Positions 4,336 to 27,354 of a stretch of 64,000 nucleotides of DNA are shown here, in pieces. The notes beneath the pieces are model-generated. The model was not told where the DNA came from. It made no database searches and worked only from the letters and a program-made list of their open reading frames with translations. Position 1 is the first letter of the stretch, and each line of letters begins with the position of its first letter. The translations under genes were made by a program, and so were the position numbers. The DNA comes from an uncultured Rhodopila sp. (GTDB taxonomy: Bacteria; Pseudomonadota; Alphaproteobacteria; Acetobacterales; Acetobacteraceae): assembly GCF_903944925.1 (NCBI RefSeq), contig NZ_CAJATU010000141.1:1-64000 (forward strand). The letters are read 5' to 3'.

Positions 4336-5469
4336 GGCATCAAGAACCGCAGTCCGCGCCAACGGTGCCACCAGCAGCACTGCTGACCCGCCAACCGCCG
4401 CCATCGCCAGGAACACCAATCCGCCGTATCGCGCATACAGCCAGCCCGACAGCACCATCATCAGCCCCGACGGTGCGCCATACCCCAGCGCCGAGTGCAG
4501 CGCCTGCCCGGTCGCCGCCCGCTCCGCCGGCACGAACCGGCTGAGCACAAGCATCGCCGACAGATGCTGCATGGCAAACGTCGCCGCATGGAGTATCTGC
4601 ACCACGACCAGAACCGGCAGCGGCGGCCCGAATGCCGTCACCGTCCACCGCACCACCGACATTGCGGCCGCGCAGGCGGTCAGCCCGGCGGGTCCGAGCC
4701 GATCCACCAGGCGTCCGCCGCGGGTGAACAGCAGGATCTCGGCGATGATCCCCTCGGCGATCAGTAGCCCGATCACCGTGTCGCTGATCCCCTGCGACCG
4801 CCAGAACAAAGCGGCGAAGCCGTAGTAAGCGGCATGTGCGCCCTGGATCAAAGCGGTGCAGCCGATAGCCAGGAGAAAGGCGGGGTTACGCAGCAACCTC
4901 AGCCCGGCAAAGGCCCGGGGTGGCGCCGGAAGGGCCGATGCCTCTGGCAGGAACACGCCCAGCACCGCGGCCGCCCCGTATCCCGCCGCCTGCAGCCAAG
5001 GCACCAGCCACGACCCGGCCCGGCTAAGCAGCCAGCCCGCCACGGCCGTGGCGATCATGAAGGTCGCCGAACCGGCGGCGCGCACCGGCCCGTACTCCAA
5101 CCGCCGTTCGCCCGCCAAAGCCAGCGCCAGCGAGTCCGCCAGCGGCCCGATCGCGCTCGCCGCCAACCCCTGCCCCGCGGCGATCAGCAGCAGCGGCAGG
5201 AACCCGCTGGCCAGGACGAACGACAGCCCAAGCCCGGACGCGACCATGGCGGCCACAACCAGCACCGGCCGCCGCCGCCCGATATGATCAGCCACCGTGC
5301 CCCAGCCCGGCCCCGCCAGCACCCGGAACAGCGCCGCCGCCCCCAGCACCTGGCCGATGGCGGCGGGCGACAGGCCCGCATCGGCGAACCACAGCGGCAT
5401 GAAGGCATTGATCGCATTGGCGGCGAAGACCGCGCCCATGAACGCGGCGACCCGCGCCGCCGCCGGCAT
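4309..5469 (-). CDS. MFS transporter, HcaT/PPP-like
   Basis: A 386-residue major-facilitator protein with about twelve hydrophobic helices. The cytoplasmic loop between helices 2 and 3 carries the usual glycine and basic pattern (WGTVADHIGRRR, near residues 56-67). Overall architecture and length fit the PPP / MFS_1-like subfamily that includes E. coli HcaT (3-phenylpropionate), though substrate cannot be inferred from sequence. The ATG at 5469 is only 7 bases from the sufE stop codon, so sufE and this gene probably share a transcript. The 3' end overlaps the convergent cyclotransferase gene. Confidence 0.87.
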   Translation of the reverse strand: MPAAARVAAFMGAVFAANAINAFMPLWFADAGLSPAAIGQVLGAAALFRVLAGPGWGTVADHIGRRRPVLVVAAMVASGLGLSFVLASGFLPLLLIAAGQGLAASAIGPLADSLALALAGERRLEYGPVRAAGSATFMIATAVAGWLLSRAGSWLVPWLQAAGYGAAAVLGVFLPEASALPAPPRAFAGLRLLRNPAFLLAIGCTALIQGAHAAYYGFAALFWRSQGISDTVIGLLIAEGIIAEILLFTRGGRLVDRLGPAGLTACAAAMSVVRWTVTAFGPPLPVLVVVQILHAATFAMQHLSAMLVLSRFVPAERAATGQALHSALGYGAPSGLMMVLSGWLYARYGGLVFLAMAAVGGSAVLLVAPLARTAVLDASAVRNRAT

Positions 5470-5476
5470 GGCGGGA

Positions 5477-5923
5477 TCAGCCGGCGCGTTGCAGCGCTGC
5501 GACTTCCCTGACCTTGCGCGCCATCGAGGCGATGCCGTTGCCGCGGTTGGTGGACAGAGCCTCTAACAAGCCCAGGTCCTTCAGGAACACCGGATCGGTT
5601 GCCAGGATTTCCTCGGGAGGCCGACCTGAGTATACCCGTAGCAGCAGCGCGATCAGGCCGGAGACGATCGCCGCGTCCGACAGCCCGGCGAAATACAGCG
5701 AGCCGTCGCGCAGCACCGCTTCCATCCACACGCGGCTCTGGCAGCCCGGCACGCGGTGCGCGTCGTTCGCCCACTCATCCGGGAACGGCGGCAGCTTGCG
5801 CCCCATGCCGATGATGAACTCGTAGCGCTCCATCCAATCATCGAACATGTCGAGTTCCTCGCCGATGGCCGCGATCGCCTCGGCGGCGGTGAGTTCTTCC
5901 GGCTTCACGAATGGATCGGTCAT
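5477..5923 (-). CDS. sufE: SufE family Fe-S cluster assembly sulfur acceptor
   Basis: The 148-residue protein matches SufE/CsdE in length and motifs: an N-terminal helix ending in FDDWMERYEFIIGMGRKLP, then the sulfur-accepting cysteine in VPGCQSRVW near residue 64, and the glycine/arginine helix RVYSGRPPEEI. SufE takes persulfide from the cysteine desulfurase SufS and delivers it to the SufBCD scaffold. The ATG at 5923 is preferred over upstream codons because the family N-terminus begins close to it. No other suf genes are near; it pairs only with the MFS gene downstream, so it may be the housekeeping stand-alone copy. Confidence 0.92.
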   Translation of the reverse strand: MTDPFVKPEELTAAEAIAAIGEELDMFDDWMERYEFIIGMGRKLPPFPDEWANDAHRVPGCQSRVWMEAVLRDGSLYFAGLSDAAIVSGLIALLLRVYSGRPPEEILATDPVFLKDLGLLEALSTNRGNGIASMARKVREVAALQRAG

Positions 5924-5972
5924 AGCTTCGATGTGCGGGGCTATGCGACGGAGGTCAAGGACGGATCGCGGG

Positions 5973-6356
5973 TCAGCCCGCCGGAACGGTGTGCAGCCGC
6001 ACCCAGGCGGTGAACTCATCATCCGGCAGTTCCCCGGCCGCCATCGCGAGCGTCATGACCACCGCCTCCGCGTCGCCGACGGTAAACCGGCAGCCGTTAA
6101 GGCGCAGGAACACTTCAAGCGCGACGAAGGCGGTGCGCTTGTTGCCGTCGATGAAAGGATGGTTCTTGGCGATCCCCAGCGCGTAGACCGCCGCCAGTTC
6201 AGCGATATCCGGTTCGCCGTAGCCGGCCCGGTTCAGCGGCCGGGCCAGCGCGCTGTCGAGCAAACCGGCGTCACGGAGGCCTGTCGAGCCCCCGTGCTCC
6301 GCCAGTTGTTCGTCATGGATCGCGAGAATAAGCTGCGGCGACAGCCAGACGGTCAC
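5973..6356 (-). CDS. doc: Doc-type Fic-fold toxin (death on curing)
   Basis: The 127-residue protein contains the Fic/Doc catalytic motif HPFIDGNKRTA near residues 66-76, with His, Asp, Gly, Asn, Lys and Arg in their expected places. The N-terminal WLSPQLILAIHDEQLAEHGG and the GLRDAGLLDSAL stretch are typical of the Doc subfamily. Doc phosphorylates and inactivates elongation factor EF-Tu. Its start overlaps the stop of the AbrB-type antitoxin gene by 4 bases (ATGA), the classic coupled arrangement. No frame damage is visible, so the module looks intact. Confidence 0.93.
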   Translation of the reverse strand: MTVWLSPQLILAIHDEQLAEHGGSTGLRDAGLLDSALARPLNRAGYGEPDIAELAAVYALGIAKNHPFIDGNKRTAFVALEVFLRLNGCRFTVGDAEAVVMTLAMAAGELPDDEFTAWVRLHTVPAG

Positions 6357-6577
6357 TTCGCCAGTTCGCGCAGCACCGCCCGGCGTTCCTTCATGACACT
6401 GCGCGCGACATCCATCTGCGCGCCGAACTCAGGGTCCGCGACGGTCAGCCGCACGCCATCCGGCTGCTCCACGGCGTAGAGCGTATCGCCCTTCACCATG
6501 CCCAGCTTGGCCAGCAGTTCCCTTGGAAGGATAACGCCCACGGAATTTCCGATCTGTGTCAGTTTCAGAGTCTGCAT
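6353..6577 (-). CDS. AbrB/MazE-type antitoxin, partner of Doc
   Basis: The 74-residue protein has an N-terminal SpoVT/AbrB swapped-hairpin DNA-binding domain (TLKLTQIGNSVGVILPRELL, then GDTLYAVEQ) and a C-terminal helix (DVARSVMKERRAVLREL) of the kind that covers the toxin active site. It should neutralise the Doc protein encoded immediately downstream and repress its own promoter. Doc is more often paired with Phd, but AbrB-Doc pairs are also known. The RBS is GGAGGG just upstream of the ATG. Confidence 0.9.
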   Translation of the reverse strand: MQTLKLTQIGNSVGVILPRELLAKLGMVKGDTLYAVEQPDGVRLTVADPEFGAQMDVARSVMKERRAVLRELAK

Positions 6578-22071: not shown

Positions 22072-23391
22072 TTAGGGTGCCCGGCTTTGCGCCCCCCAGT
22101 TCCGCTCCAGATTGCCGATAAGCGCCTCGCTGAAATGGCACGCCGCCTGTTCCCGCGCGTAAACGGCGAAGTAGCGGCGGAACAGGTCCAGCGGCTCCAC
22201 CGCCACCCGGAAAGCGCGCCGGTTGCCGATGGCCCCCACCGCTCCGGCATCGGTCAAAAGCGTCACGGTGCGATCGATGGCGGCGTCCATGCCGGCAGCA
22301 GGGCCGATCTCGTCGCAGATCAGCCGCCCCTCGGCGCTGTCGCACTCCAGCCGCCGCTCCGCCTGGATCAACTGCCGCGCCAGCCGTTCGCCGGTGAAGC
22401 GCGGGAGGCGCAGATTGGCCGCGCCCGGGATGATGCCCTCCTTCCGGGCGGGCAAGGTCATGAACGCATCGGCCGCGGCGAGCACGTAATCCACCGCCAG
22501 CAGAATCTGGCAGTGGCCGCCGATGGCCCAGCCCTCCACCGCGGCGATCCACGGTTTCTCGCTGCCGGCGCCGTTGACGTCGTCCGACAGCACATCGGGC
22601 GAGGCGACCCCGCGCAGCAACTTGTGCACGAAACCGAGGTCGCGCTGCAGGTACCAGACGAACGGGATCGTGCCGCGATACAGGTGTGTCAGGTTGATGC
22701 CGCTGCCGAAGATGCGCCGCCCGGCGTATTTCGGGTTCTGCACCGGCTCGCCGCGAAACACGGCGATGTCGGTTCCGGGGTCCAGAATGGCGACATCGAC
22801 GCCGGTTTCGAAGGCGGCGATCGTCTGCTGGTCCTCGGCATTCAGGTAACGGGCGTTGCTGACCAGAAGATGCGCCGCCCGGCCACGGCGTTCCACCCGG
22901 GCGGCGCCCAGATCGACAACGCCGTTGGCGGCCAGCTTCGCCAGCGCCGCCGCGGTTTCCGGCCGCGGCAGCAGCATCGCGTGGCACAAATGCGTCCCGC
23001 AGCGCGGATGGGCGAGGATTTGCGCGATCAGGATGGCCTGGTCGATCTCCCACCCCTCCTTCTCGCGCAACGGGCGCTGCGCCTCGATGGCAAGTGTTGC
23101 AACGTCAGGAACCAGCCCCGGGAAGGCGTCCGCCGCCTGCAACACCAGATCCTCGACCCGCACGAAGTGGGCGAAGCCACCGGTCAGGGTCGCGTAGACC
23201 TTCTCGACATGCTGGCGCAGGAAGCGATCGCGCGCCTCGCGGGCTTCCCGGTGCAGCGTGGCAGCGGCGATGGCTTCGGCCGGGTTGCGCGACGCCTTGG
23301 GCGGCAGGCGGCCGATCGAGTCGGCCGAACGCTGCCAGTACTGGCCGAAGCTGGCGGTGTCCGTGGCGATGTCCGCGGTGATCGCCGGCAT
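22072..23391 (-). CDS. DpgC-like cofactor-independent arylacetyl-CoA dioxygenase (crotonase fold)
   Basis: The 439-residue protein has an all-helical N-terminal domain (1-165) and a C-terminal crotonase domain (about 166-420), the layout of 3,5-dihydroxyphenylacetyl-CoA 1,2-dioxygenase DpgC rather than ordinary 260-residue enoyl-CoA hydratases. Compared from memory with Streptomyces DpgC, Glu186 (LNAED) corresponds to Glu189, Ile232 (GSGINL) to the oxyanion Ile235, and Gly292/Gln295 (GGHCQ) to Gly296/Gln299; KEGIIPGAANLRL is also shared. DpgC uses O2 with no metal or flavin to turn an arylacetyl-CoA into an arylglyoxylate. The start is 6 bases after the stop of the phenylacetate-CoA-ligase-type gene, so both are one operon. 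Substrate is unknown; a plain hydratase is the main alternative. Confidence 0.78.
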   Translation of the reverse strand: MPAITADIATDTASFGQYWQRSADSIGRLPPKASRNPAEAIAAATLHREAREARDRFLRQHVEKVYATLTGGFAHFVRVEDLVLQAADAFPGLVPDVATLAIEAQRPLREKEGWEIDQAILIAQILAHPRCGTHLCHAMLLPRPETAAALAKLAANGVVDLGAARVERRGRAAHLLVSNARYLNAEDQQTIAAFETGVDVAILDPGTDIAVFRGEPVQNPKYAGRRIFGSGINLTHLYRGTIPFVWYLQRDLGFVHKLLRGVASPDVLSDDVNGAGSEKPWIAAVEGWAIGGHCQILLAVDYVLAAADAFMTLPARKEGIIPGAANLRLPRFTGERLARQLIQAERRLECDSAEGRLICDEIGPAAGMDAAIDRTVTLLTDAGAVGAIGNRRAFRVAVEPLDLFRRYFAVYAREQAACHFSEALIGNLERNWGAQSRAP

Positions 23392-23397
23392 GATGCT

Positions 23398-24687
23398 TTA
23401 TCCCTTCGGCCGCAGGTCCAACACGCGCTGCGCCTTGCCCTGCGAGCGTTCCAAGGTCCCCGGCTCGACCACCCGCACCGTCGTCGTCACGCCGACGAAC
23501 GCCTTGATCTGATGCGCCGCGCTCTTTTCCAGCCCCGCCAAATCGGCGCCGCTGAGCTTGCCGCCCAGGATCGCCCGGGTTTCCACCACCACGTCCACCT
23601 CATCCAAATGCCCCGGCCGCCGCAATTCGATCAGATAGTGCGGCGCAAGGCGATCCTCCAGCGCCAGGGCGGCTTCAATCTGTGAGGGAAACACATTGAC
23701 GCCGCGGATGATCAGCATGTCGTCGCTGCGGCCGTGGATGCGCCCGATCCGCCGCATGGCGCGGGCGGGATTTGGCAGCAGGCGGGTCAGGTCGTGGGTG
23801 CGGTAGCGGATCAGCGGCATCGCTTCCTTGGTCAGCGTGGTGATGACCAGTTCCCCCGGCTCGCCATCTTTCAAGGGCCGCCCGGTGTCCGGATCGATGA
23901 TCTCCGGATAGAAGTGGTCTTCCCAGATCGTCAGGGCGCCCTTCGATTCAGGACATTCCTGCGCCACGCCGGGGCCCATGATCTCCGAGAGGCCGTAGAG
24001 GTCGAGCGCCTCGATCCCCATGCGGTGTTCGATTTCCGCCCGCAGGCCTTCGCCCCACGGCTCGGCGCCGAAAATACCGAGCCGCAGGCTGGACTTTTGT
24101 GAGTCGATCCCGTGCCGCTCGAACGCGTCGGCGATGGCCAGCATGTAGGACGGGGTCGCCATGATGATGTCCGGCCGGAAATCGGTGATGATCTGCACCT
24201 GCCGATCGGTGAAGCCGCCGCTGATCGGGATGACGGCGGCGCCGAGATGTTCGGCGCCGTAATGCGCACCCAGGCCTCCGGTGAACAGGCCATAGGTATA
24301 GGCAACGTGGATCGTATCGCTCCGGCTGCCGCCGGCCGCCTGAATGGAGCGCGCCATCAGCCGCGACCAGGTTTCGATGTCGTTTTTCGTATACCCGGCG
24401 ACGGTCGGCTTGCCGGTGGTGCCGCTGGAGGCATGGATGCGGACGATCTGCTCCATCGGCACGGCGAACATCCCGTACGGATAGTTCTGCCGCAGGTCTT
24501 CCTTGGCGGTCAGCGGGAACCTGGCGATGTCGCTGAGGTGGTGGAGGTCGTCCGGATGCACGCCGGCTGAGGCACAGGCCTTGCGGTAGTGCGGGATGCG
24601 GTCATGCGCGCGGCGCACTGCGTCACGCAACCGCTTGAGTTGCAGCGCGCGCAGTTCATCAACGCTGCCCGTTTCGATCATGTCCAT
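23398..24687 (-). CDS. Phenylacetate-CoA ligase-type arylacetate:CoA ligase
   Basis: The 429-residue AMP-forming ligase matches PaaK in length and motifs: the P-loop SSGTTGKPTVAGYT near residues 90-103, the PISGGFTDRQ region, GAEPWGEGLRAEIE near residue 205, YGLSEIMGPGVAQEC near residue 228 (substrate/AMP site), and RGVNVFPSQIE near residue 325. The C-terminal Lys lies in ERSQGKAQRVLDL. It activates an arylacetic acid to its CoA thioester. The standard paaABCDE ring-epoxidation genes are absent; instead a DpgC-like dioxygenase gene follows 6 bases downstream. An inverted pair of dispersed repeats lies upstream, and no obvious regulator gene is adjacent. Confidence 0.9.
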   Translation of the reverse strand: MDMIETGSVDELRALQLKRLRDAVRRAHDRIPHYRKACASAGVHPDDLHHLSDIARFPLTAKEDLRQNYPYGMFAVPMEQIVRIHASSGTTGKPTVAGYTKNDIETWSRLMARSIQAAGGSRSDTIHVAYTYGLFTGGLGAHYGAEHLGAAVIPISGGFTDRQVQIITDFRPDIIMATPSYMLAIADAFERHGIDSQKSSLRLGIFGAEPWGEGLRAEIEHRMGIEALDLYGLSEIMGPGVAQECPESKGALTIWEDHFYPEIIDPDTGRPLKDGEPGELVITTLTKEAMPLIRYRTHDLTRLLPNPARAMRRIGRIHGRSDDMLIIRGVNVFPSQIEAALALEDRLAPHYLIELRRPGHLDEVDVVVETRAILGGKLSGADLAGLEKSAAHQIKAFVGVTTTVRVVEPGTLERSQGKAQRVLDLRPKG

Positions 24688-25220: not shown

Positions 25221-25592
25221 CTACGTGCCCGTCCCCTCAATAAAGCAGATGATCGACCTGCCCGACCAGCAGGCGACGCCTTCCCCGGTCGGGTTGTCAT
25301 GCCGATGCAAAACACTCCCCTCCGGAACGTCCACCCAGTCGAACGGCGGGTTCTGCCAGCGGGCGAATTCACCGCCGATAAAAGCCTGGAAATGACCGTC
25401 AACGACACGGTATTGCACCGTCCGGCAGTCGGAACGATCGCAGCACGACAAATCCGTCTGCGGCTGGCGCAAACTCTTGAACCACGGCGACAGTTCCGGA
25501 TCGGCCCCGGGCGGGGGAGCCGCGCGCAGCGGCGTGCCGCAGTAAAATACCACACCGGCCGCGGCAAGCGCATGGATCACCCGTCGAGGCAT
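25221..25592 (-). CDS. Secreted hypothetical protein with conserved cysteines
   Basis: A 123-residue protein with a signal peptide (basic MPRRVIHALAAAGVVFYCG, cleavage after LRA) and a mature domain containing LSCCDRSDCR near residue 50 and WVDVPEGSVLHRHDNPTGEG near residue 88, ending in a CWSGRSIICFIEG strand. Five or more cysteines suggest disulfides in the periplasm. It resembles small secreted proteins of unknown function that are common in Acetobacteraceae and Bradyrhizobium; that is recalled, not searched. The ATG at 25592 is chosen because GGAAGG lies 9 bases upstream; the one at 25601 directly abuts it. Confidence 0.7.
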   Translation of the reverse strand: MPRRVIHALAAAGVVFYCGTPLRAAPPPGADPELSPWFKSLRQPQTDLSCCDRSDCRTVQYRVVDGHFQAFIGGEFARWQNPPFDWVDVPEGSVLHRHDNPTGEGVACWSGRSIICFIEGTGT

Positions 25593-25702
25593 CCGATCCA
25601 TCCTTCCTGGACAATGACCACCCTGAATTAATGTATTCGATTTCTTGCCAATCCAACCGTTTCGGCGGCCGGGTTCGTGAAGTTGAAGTCGGCGCGCGGA
25701 AC

Positions 25703-26128
25703 TCAGCCGGTTTCGGCGCCCGAGATCACCCGCAGTACCGGCGGCACCGCCTCGGCATCGACCTCGACCAGCGCGCCATCCGGCACCGCGCGGGTAATAT
25801 CGACCTCGAACCCCGACATCATCGTGGCATCGGCCAGCGCCGCGCCCTGCGCCATGATCGGATTGACCGTGTTGAACACCAACGCTGCCGGAACGATCCC
25901 GCGCGCCGCCATCTCGTGCAGCATCCAGGCGGTCGCCACGCCGCCCTTCGCCCGGTCCAGGATCAAAACGACCCCGACATACGATCGCCCGGCCAACTCA
26001 TGCTGCGGCCGCGAAAAGATACCGGCGATCCGGTCGAGGTCGTACCGTGCCGAAAACCCGTCGCTCGCCACCAGCGCCCGGCCGCGTACCGTGCGGCCCA
26101 TCGCGGCGGCGGCCCGGTAGGCCGTCAT
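25703..26128 (-). CDS. Aconitase X small (swivelling) subunit
   Basis: The 141-residue protein is the separate swivelling domain of aconitase X. Typical stretches are GRTVRGRALVASDGFSARYD near the N-terminus, AGRSYVGVVLILDRAKGGVA near residue 55 and PAALVFNTVNPIMAQGAALA near residue 85, the Ser/Asn loop that closes the active site. Its ATG overlaps the stop of the large-subunit gene by 4 bases. With the large subunit it should form a hydro-lyase; bacterial homologues include cis-3-hydroxy-L-proline dehydratase. Confidence 0.87.
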   Translation of the reverse strand: MTAYRAAAAMGRTVRGRALVASDGFSARYDLDRIAGIFSRPQHELAGRSYVGVVLILDRAKGGVATAWMLHEMAARGIVPAALVFNTVNPIMAQGAALADATMMSGFEVDITRAVPDGALVEVDAEAVPPVLRVISGAETG

Positions 26129-27354
26129 GGCAGCCGCCCGGTGCAGGCCGCCTCCACGCATTGCTCCATCGACAGCAGCACCGGAGCATAGCCGTAGCCG
26201 CCGAGAATGTTGGTCAGCTTGGCCGAGTTCGTCGCCAGCCGCCGCCAGCCATTCGCCTCCCCCAATTCGCGCGCATAGCTTTGGTAGAAGCACATCCCGG
26301 ACAGCACCATCGCGCCGGAGGCCTCTATCCGCTGCGTCAACCCCATGCGGTCCGCGTCCGGCTTGACCTGCGGGCTGGTGACCGCCAGCAGCGGCACAAC
26401 GACCCGGCGGTTGTCGAGCATTGCCGCCACCGCCTGCATCTCCAGCAGCGAAAGCTGCGGTGCGGAGAACACCACCACGTCCACCTTATCCCCGCCGGTG
26501 GCGTATTCCGCCAGCAGCGAGGCGACAGCCTGCCGACCCACGGTGACCGGCGCAGGCCGCGGGCTGTCGAACGCATCGGCAGCTTCCGGCGTAACGCCCT
26601 CGATATGGAACATCGCGACGGAGCCGAAGCTCGCCATCGCGGCGCCGAAATGCTTCAGCTCGTCCGATCCCGGGACGCGATCGAAGCCGGCGATCACCGG
26701 CACCCGCCAGTAGTCCCCGGCCAGCCGACCGATGACGCCGCCGAGGGCACCCCATTCGTGCAGCGCCGCGGGGGTCCAATCGGTCTCGACCAGCAGCGAC
26801 CCGCGCCGGCAGGCGTCGAGATGGTAGCCATAGCGCGGCGTGAAACCGGTAAGGCCGGCGGCCAGGGCGGACGGACCGCCCTCGAAGTTGGACCGCGCGC
26901 CGAGGACCGAGTTGCAATAGATCACCACGCCGGTGTCGCCATAGGCCATGTGCTCGCCGCGCACCGGCGGCATGATGGTCTGGTAGTTGATGCAGGTGTT
27001 GGTCATCAGCACGCCGAGCGCTTCAAACGCGGCGACCGCGCGCCGCTCCAGCGCGACCATCCAGTCCTGCTGTTTCAGCCGCACCGCCGCGCCGAAGTCG
27101 GTCCCGCGCGGGTCGGTTATCGTCGGCACGCGGACGCGGCGCTGCTGTTCCGGCATCGCGGCGAAGCGTTCTAGGAAGGCGACGCCGGCTTCGCCGAGCG
27201 ATTCGGTATCCGCCATGATGTGCGCCTGGCCGACGGGCACCAGGTCGCGCGCGCCGAGGTAGCGGCCGACGCGGATCTGGTGTTCCACCGCCCAGCGCCG
27301 CGCCTGACCCTGTTCGCCGCGCAGCATGGCTTCCGCTTCATCGTGCAGGTGCAT
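26125..27354 (-). CDS. Aconitase X large (catalytic) subunit
   Basis: The 409-residue protein has the AcnX catalytic fold: VGQAHIMADTESLGEAG near residue 41, TITDPRGTDFG near residue 79, NTCINYQTIMPPVRGEHMA near residue 118, IYCNSVLGARSNFEGGPSA near residue 144, and the C-terminal SGMCFYQSYARELG / TNSAKLTNILGGYG stretches. Cysteines in NTCINY, IYCNS and SGMCF could bind an Fe-S cluster. AcnX enzymes dehydrate cis-3-hydroxy-L-proline or, in some archaea, mevalonate 5-phosphate. No proline racemase or imine reductase gene is adjacent, so the substrate is open. Confidence 0.88.
   Translation of the reverse strand: MHLHDEAEAMLRGEQGQARRWAVEHQIRVGRYLGARDLVPVGQAHIMADTESLGEAGVAFLERFAAMPEQQRRVRVPTITDPRGTDFGAAVRLKQQDWMVALERRAVAAFEALGVLMTNTCINYQTIMPPVRGEHMAYGDTGVVIYCNSVLGARSNFEGGPSALAAGLTGFTPRYGYHLDACRRGSLLVETDWTPAALHEWGALGGVIGRLAGDYWRVPVIAGFDRVPGSDELKHFGAAMASFGSVAMFHIEGVTPEAADAFDSPRPAPVTVGRQAVASLLAEYATGGDKVDVVVFSAPQLSLLEMQAVAAMLDNRRVVVPLLAVTSPQVKPDADRMGLTQRIEASGAMVLSGMCFYQSYARELGEANGWRRLATNSAKLTNILGGYGYAPVLLSMEQCVEAACTGRLP

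Follow-up and report, generated by a model that had tools for sequence, protein, structure and literature searches.

A PaaK-type ligase and a DpgC-like protein encoded side by side in an uncultured Rhodopila: a putative cofactor-free route for aerobic phenylacetate use

To our knowledge, the dioxygenase DpgC is known only from pathways of the peptide-antibiotic type, and cofactor-free oxygenases as a whole are few. Here, we analyze a two-gene operon of an uncultured Rhodopila sp. (Acetobacteraceae) that encodes a ligase of the PaaK type and a DpgC-like protein. The operon lies on contig NZ_CAJATU010000141.1 of assembly GCF_903944925.1, positions 1 to 64,000 of which were analyzed; this whole stretch of 64,000 nucleotides is referred to as the window.

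Phenylacetyl-coenzyme A (phenylacetyl-CoA) can be degraded by the Paa epoxidase route, in which a di-iron enzyme uses NADPH to epoxidize the ring. Anaerobically, it is oxidized by phenylacetyl-CoA:acceptor oxidoreductase, a molybdenum-iron-sulfur enzyme that uses no O2; the overall sequence, from phenylacetyl-CoA through phenylglyoxylate to benzoyl-CoA, is described in passages of PMC9765128. DpgC is known from actinobacterial clusters, and PMC3849588 reports it from Xanthomonas as well. The pristinamycin protein PglA is presented in sections of PMC7089894 as a dioxygenase that converts phenylacetyl-CoA to benzoylformyl-CoA, which is then processed by the thioesterase PglD, while a table of that same paper, as well as a passage in PMC10685826, calls PglA a dehydrogenase. 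If the dioxygenase assignment is correct, the family accepts an unsubstituted ring. No catabolic relative of DpgC was found in our literature search of open PMC papers.

The gene pair and the DpgC-like protein

The operon of ligase and DpgC-like protein is real. Its first gene (23398..24687, (-) strand) encodes a 429-amino acid (aa) arylacetate-CoA ligase of the PaaK type, and its second (22072..23391, (-)) the 439-aa predicted DpgC-like cofactor-free arylacetyl-CoA dioxygenase. Only the 6 bases AGCATC (23392..23397, (-)) separate the ligase stop from the dioxygenase start. Reading of the sequence reproduces the coordinates, strand, lengths and gap reported in the initial annotation. The ligase exceeds the cut-off of the PaaK equivalog model TIGR02155 by a margin of 6 bits (652.4 vs. 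646.3) and contains the Pfam domains AMP-binding and AMP-binding_C_2. It is under purifying selection, with nonsynonymous divergence (dN) of 0.043 and 0.053 and synonymous divergence (dS) of 0.44 and 0.40 from two close relatives; for the dioxygenase gene, dN is 0.04-0.14 and dS 0.36-0.63 in comparison with three relatives. A search for promoter-like sites found none.

The 439-aa protein matches the NCBIfam model of DpgC (NF042432) over residues 23-430 with 404.1 bits (E 8.6e-121). The cut-off of 530 bits is not reached, either by this protein or by any of the 59 relatives searched. The next-best NCBIfam model is DpgD at 57 bits, and among the 25 of 48 matches listed no hydratase-type model reaches its cut-off (best 57 bits, cut-offs at least 237). 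In a sequence search of the PDB, the best five matches are all DpgC (E 7.5e-92 to 2.9e-91, residues 26-430) and the sixth has an E of 3e-10; structures of DpgC in the PDB include 2np9, 2pg8, 4ylh, 5kag, 5kah and 5kaj. An AlphaFold model based on 36 aligned sequences has a mean predicted local distance difference test score (pLDDT) of 81 and a predicted template modelling score (pTM) of 0.86, with a pLDDT of only 52-68 over residues 311-350, the region with pocket residues. Ranks 1-19 of a fold search with this model are all DpgC chains (template modelling score 0.85-0.91, E at most 1.9e-30, 41-43% identity), and hydratases start at rank 20 (best E 1.4e-7). The DpgC domain plan that had been proposed for the protein is thus borne out, and a grouping with enoyl-CoA hydratases, named in the initial annotation as one outcome that would contradict its interpretation, is not seen.

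Seven residues of DpgC, namely those at 189, 235, 254, 296, 299, 319 and 324, are kept in the window protein as Glu186, Ile232, Arg250, Gly292, Gln295, Ala315 and Ile320. In DpgC, these residues presumably bind substrate and O2. Differences are found at Val425, where Leu424 of the window protein stands, and at Lys238, Gly297 and Ala298, which are replaced by Thr, His and Cys, respectively. The mutants R254K, A319C and V425T appear in PDB titles of DpgC. Across 93 aligned sequences (DpgC, the window protein, those of 80 public loci and 11 relatives taken from plasmid records), no substitution occurs at Glu189 or Gln299, and Arg254 is found in 92, the sole exception being a His in locus L065. 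This exception is a member of the window-type set (the window and the 80 loci), in which Ala319, Ile324 and Leu425 are present in 81 of 81 sequences and Ile235 in 79.

The initial annotation had placed the catalytic positions on a gapless stretch, with Glu, Ile and Gly/Gln retained and Asp in place of Arg254. The retained positions stand, but the stretch requires a one-residue gap. The Asp reading is rejected as an artefact of ungapped alignment: a one-residue deletion just before this position (YL-QRDLGF in the window protein vs. FLMRRELGY in DpgC) puts Arg250 opposite Arg254. The correction favours the dioxygenase assignment, because the Arg is in fact kept. With homology over both the N-terminal helical part and the crotonase core, and with the key residues in place, the protein is by sequence and fold a member of the wider family of DpgC-fold arylacetyl-CoA dioxygenases, and a candidate for O2-dependent, cofactor-free formation of arylglyoxylate.

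The 80 public loci are the best 80 of at least 505 relatives, a set biased to close relatives. Together with the window protein they form a single clade (support 0.85, midpoint rooting), separate from an actinobacterial clade of 11 sequences (support 1.0) to which DpgC and the PglA-type proteins belong; a Tistrella protein falls outside both clades on its own. The window clade, mostly Alphaproteobacteria by record titles, is a distinct branch of the DpgC family, and a catabolic-looking one. Viral contigs gave no relative. In a contig labelled Chloroflexi (L122), which is perhaps mis-binned, the dioxygenase gene has neighbours of families seen in Reyranella loci.

The window protein shares its fold and homology over residues 23-430 with DpgC, but differs from it in falling under the equivalog cut-off, in its separate clade and in its partner, which is an ATP-dependent ligase and not the type III polyketide synthase DpgA. 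The NCBIfam scan of the window neighbours, which did not extend to the rest of the genome, found no dpgA, dpgB or dpgD and no nonribosomal peptide synthetase (NRPS) gene, in agreement with the earlier observation that no glycopeptide-type pathway lies nearby.

Four relatives were labelled PglA-type by their operon layout; the PglA of S. pristinaespiralis is not itself among the sequences compared. These proteins keep the key residues, and Thr238 and Leu425 are common to them and the window protein. They fall, however, into the actinobacterial clade with DpgC, and their loci contain a pyruvate-dehydrogenase-like pair, a hydrolase, an aminotransferase and NRPS genes (in L196 by our own gene calls). 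Among the scanned window neighbours, the pyruvate-dehydrogenase-like pair, the thioesterase and the aminotransferase are absent; a class-V aminotransferase gene lies 6 kb from the pair. Of 14 alignment columns that separate 7 DpgC-type from 4 PglA-type proteins, the window protein agrees with PglA in 7, with DpgC in 4 and with neither in 3. Among the 7 proteins grouped as DpgC-type, L197 branches next to the PglA-type proteins in the phylogeny, so that its label is doubtful. The Streptomyces PglA-type relatives are annotated merely as members of the enoyl-CoA hydratase/isomerase family.

Ligase pairing and co-occurrence with paaA and boxB

Our genus set contains 33 genomes, including Rhodopila globiformis DSM 161, and 14 of them carry the dioxygenase. 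The ligase adjoins the dioxygenase in 13 of these loci, R. globiformis (G029) being the sole genus carrier without an adjacent ligase. Among the 80 closest public loci, 43 have a ligase gene in the same orientation no more than 500 bases upstream and 6 have one elsewhere in the locus; the remaining flanks vary by lineage. Carriers that have no ligase at the locus commonly encode one elsewhere: a PaaK of at least 600 bits is present in 18 of 20 (20 of 27 such loci submitted), in 11 of them over the cut-off. A comparison of linked ligases with the PaaKs of paa clusters was set aside, as a PaaK suitable for it was obtained from only 2 of 10 paaA loci; L071, L084, L114 and one PaaK from a paaA locus were too short and were dropped. 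In the genus, no PaaK-like gene was found by tblastn within the 18-19.5 kb around paaA in five of five genomes (L232-L236).

The paaABCDE genes had been described as missing. Our search, which covered paaA alone among the paa subunits, finds no match in the whole genome of the window (G000). Within the genus, 14 genomes have the dioxygenase, 15 have paaA, none has both and 4 have neither. Outside the genus, where 50 of 68 carrier loci were submitted, paaA exceeds the cut-off in a single carrier; weak matches to the paaA profile (79-102 bits, cut-off 280) were observed in 12 of the 50, namely: G079, G085, G089, G091, G095, G096, G098, G099, G101, G103, G107 and G108.

The marker of the Box pathway, boxB, is present in all 14 genus carriers, in 3 of them as fragments below the cut-off only, and in 41 of the 50 carriers outside the genus (39 over the cut-off). 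An even sample of the class, comprising 387 genomes with 15 carriers and 372 others, has boxB in 11 of the 15 carriers vs. 82 of the 372 non-carriers (P 5e-5); counted by genus, the ratio is 7/9 vs. 51/255 (P 5e-4). In the window's genome, the genes for benzoate-CoA ligase, boxC and boxB are clustered together.

The proposed route and its alternatives

That most carriers are without paaA and with boxB makes a catabolic role and arylglyoxylate chemistry more likely. We consider it probable that the pair serves a pathway from phenylacetate through phenylacetyl-CoA and phenylglyoxylate to benzoyl-CoA and on into the Box pathway, with a cofactor-free dioxygenase at its centre. The ligase would activate phenylacetate or one of its hydroxylated forms as the CoA thioester. 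The dioxygenase would turn arylacetyl-CoA and O2 into arylglyoxylate and CoA and would need neither metal nor flavin nor NAD(P)H. By analogy with DpgC, the oxyanion hole of the crotonase fold would hold the arylacetyl-CoA enolate; O2 in a hydrophobic pocket would add to C2; and the resulting peroxide would attack the thioester, expelling CoA and leaving arylglyoxylate. A 2-oxoacid oxidoreductase could then convert phenylglyoxylate to benzoyl-CoA; alternatively, decarboxylation could be followed by oxidation of the aldehyde and the action of benzoate-CoA ligase. Benzoyl-CoA would enter the aerobic Box pathway.

In the cell, the pair would take the place of the paa epoxidase step. The proposed route resembles the Paa epoxidase route in being aerobic and in starting from the same PaaK product, but differs in that the window's genome is without paaA. 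It would also parallel the anaerobic molybdenum reaction in an O2-dependent form and lead to the same intermediate. On balance, we lean towards the broader view that this is a third, cofactor-free aerobic route of phenylacetate use in many Pseudomonadota, one that replaces the paa epoxidase and proceeds via phenylglyoxylate and Box.

Other gene contexts bear on where the thioester would come from. In two Burkholderiales metagenome-assembled genomes (G059 and G060; loci L061 and L062), the dioxygenase gene has no adjacent ligase and follows an IorA-like gene, an IorB-like gene and a small gene. In L061, the IorA-like protein scores 233.6 bits (cut-off 651, under) and the IorB-like protein 550 bits (cut-off 348, over), and the small gene matches thioesterase models; L062 contains homologues. 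IorAB converts phenylpyruvate to phenylacetyl-CoA according to a passage of PMC9765128. The Streptomyces loci have a pyruvate-dehydrogenase-like pair beside the dioxygenase relative. In carrier G108, PaaK comes directly after NrfD-like, iron-sulfur and molybdopterin genes, with subunits of benzoyl-CoA reductase near, and in G060 PaaK is separated by other genes from a molybdopterin and an iron-sulfur gene at a distance of about 6 kb. Such a set matches the make-up of the anaerobic phenylacetyl-CoA oxidoreductase, which these genes may encode.

As for the fate of phenylglyoxylate, the PaaK contig of R. globiformis contains a 2-oxoacid:acceptor oxidoreductase pair, a GltD-like flavoprotein and benzoylformate decarboxylase. 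Over the cut-off, the latter is found only in G022 and G029 among the 33 genus genomes, both of them carriers. The window's genome has a benzoylformate-decarboxylase-like gene of 445 bits (cut-off 493 not reached). Because such a gene is also present in paaA genomes, it is not assigned to the step after phenylglyoxylate. Beside the decarboxylase-like gene lies a periplasmic binding protein that shares 58-60% identity with one encoded close to the pair in three further carriers, a link to the pair that is suggestive only. The box cluster was considered as the holder of the missing phenylglyoxylate step and rejected, since the gene calls of 11 box loci include no IorA/IorB-like protein. In L126, an acetolactate-synthase-type thiamine-diphosphate enzyme (4872-6488; 382 bits, cut-off 509, under) is encoded one base from the ligase that adjoins the dioxygenase and could act on the 2-oxo acid. 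The contexts of the Ior-like genes, of G108 and G060, of R. globiformis and of the window's box cluster are consistent with a route that forms phenylglyoxylate and aims at benzoyl-CoA.

Several observations weigh against the proposed route. The ligase is missing from 27 of the 80 public loci despite an upstream flank of 1.5 kb or more (4 others are cut too short), and within 1.5-kb flanks it is found in 1 of the 16 class-sample loci (from the 15 carriers), which is the window's own. Conservation of the pair as neighbours, the lack of which the initial annotation named as refuting, is thus seen in part, namely in the genus and in about half of the public loci. Genome G083 has both the dioxygenase and paaA. 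In the class sample, paaA is present in 0 of 15 carriers vs. 51 of 372 others, which is not significant alone (P 0.12). boxB is also found in 11 of the 15 genus paaA genomes and hardly separates them from carriers, and it is absent from 9 of the 50 carriers outside the genus and from 4 of the 15 in the class sample, 3 of these 4 being of the Tistrella type (97-100% identical to the Tistrella protein), a separate branch. In a dnaN phylogeny covering 30 genomes of the genus (G002, G004 and G020 left off), the 13 carriers included all fall into one clade with a support of 1.0. Because of this single clade, the exclusion of paaA in the genus counts as one event, and its treatment as independent cases (naive P 4e-6) was rejected. 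A benzoylformate-decarboxylase-like match (E at most 1e-80) is found in 32 of the 33 genus genomes, those with paaA included. The substrate of DpgC is not transferable to the window protein, because the profile score of 404 is under the cut-off of 530. The comparison with PglA depends on labels given by operon layout and on a paper that is itself inconsistent in naming the enzyme, and the product given there is benzoylformyl-CoA, with a separate thioesterase. The initial interpretation is therefore partly supported: the family assignment is upheld and the pairing is upheld in part, with the chemistry a prediction.

It is rather unlikely, though worth weighing, that the same dioxygenase chemistry acts on another natural substrate, i.e. 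hydroxylated phenylacetyl-CoA or indole-3-acetyl-CoA, with another ring-cleavage route. Glu189 and Arg254, which presumably contact a phenol hydroxyl of the DpgC substrate, are kept, and IorAB also accepts indole- and hydroxyphenylpyruvate. In two Afifellaceae metagenome-assembled genomes in which boxB was not found (G086 and G087), a 4-hydroxybenzoate 3-monooxygenase gene adjoins the dioxygenase gene (L098 9512-10684, 643.9 bits; L100 9437-10645, a copy 95% identical), which fits 4-hydroxyphenylacetate. However, the four PglA-type proteins keep Glu189 and Arg254 as well, yet the PglA substrate, as given in the passages that name it, has no hydroxyl; the two residues were therefore rejected as an argument for a hydroxylated substrate. 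The window ligase is also over the PaaK cut-off, if narrowly, and boxB is common in carriers.

A biosynthetic role, in which arylglyoxylate would be transaminated to arylglycine for a peptide or another metabolite, is improbable. DpgC and PglA, the relatives whose role is reported, serve such pathways, the actinobacterial loci fetched have NRPS and/or aminotransferase genes alongside, and three Bauldia loci contain an aspartate-aminotransferase-type gene directly upstream (in L082, 570 bits, under the cut-off of 617). Against this stand the lack of dpg and NRPS models among the scanned window neighbours and the size of the genes. From 13 to 36 kb of the window, no called gene is longer than that for a Kup-type transporter of 635 aa. 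In the 14 genus loci, the longest called genes encode at most 635 aa, the exceptions being a 652-aa protein, a 930-aa sensor kinase and a 1349-aa protein without an NCBIfam match. Of the 960 genes called across the window and the 80 public loci, 7 exceed 1000 aa, and of these only the 1349-aa one was family-scanned. The context also looks catabolic: three genus loci contain an IclR regulator together with a periplasmic binding protein, and the dioxygenase is associated with boxB.

Equally improbable is an ordinary crotonase-family enzyme (hydratase, isomerase or hydrolase) that has a DpgC-like N-terminal domain and uses no O2: the crotonase superfamily has many chemistries and Pfam gives ECH_1 alone (44.6 bits), but the DpgC residues and fold are kept along the protein and the best other family model is far below that of DpgC.

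If the phenylacetate route through a cofactor-free dioxygenase is real, the DpgC family would consist of an antibiotic branch and a branch that serves ordinary carbon metabolism. It would explain the aerobic use of phenylacetate by carriers without paaA and would be an aerobic mirror of the anaerobic molybdenum reaction. It would also provide many natural variants for the study of metal- and flavin-free O2 activation.

Genes upstream of the pair

A small 126-aa open reading frame (25221..25601, (-)) lies upstream of the ligase gene. It is in the list of open reading frames, is absent from the gene-caller output and has no NCBIfam match. Copies that are 75-93% identical were found by tblastn near the pair in 3 of the 13 other genus loci (L031 8805-9182, L032 7601-7978 and L033 10454-10831), and the copy of R. 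globiformis sits directly upstream of the dioxygenase gene. This open reading frame is at most a candidate member of the operon.

Further upstream, a two-part aconitase X is encoded at 25703-27354 (-). Its large part (409 aa) matches Pfam AcnX with 368 bits and the NCBIfam model of cis-3-hydroxy-L-proline dehydratase with 185 bits, the cut-off of 700 not being reached. Among the 14 genus loci compared, the aconitase X family is found in the window only.

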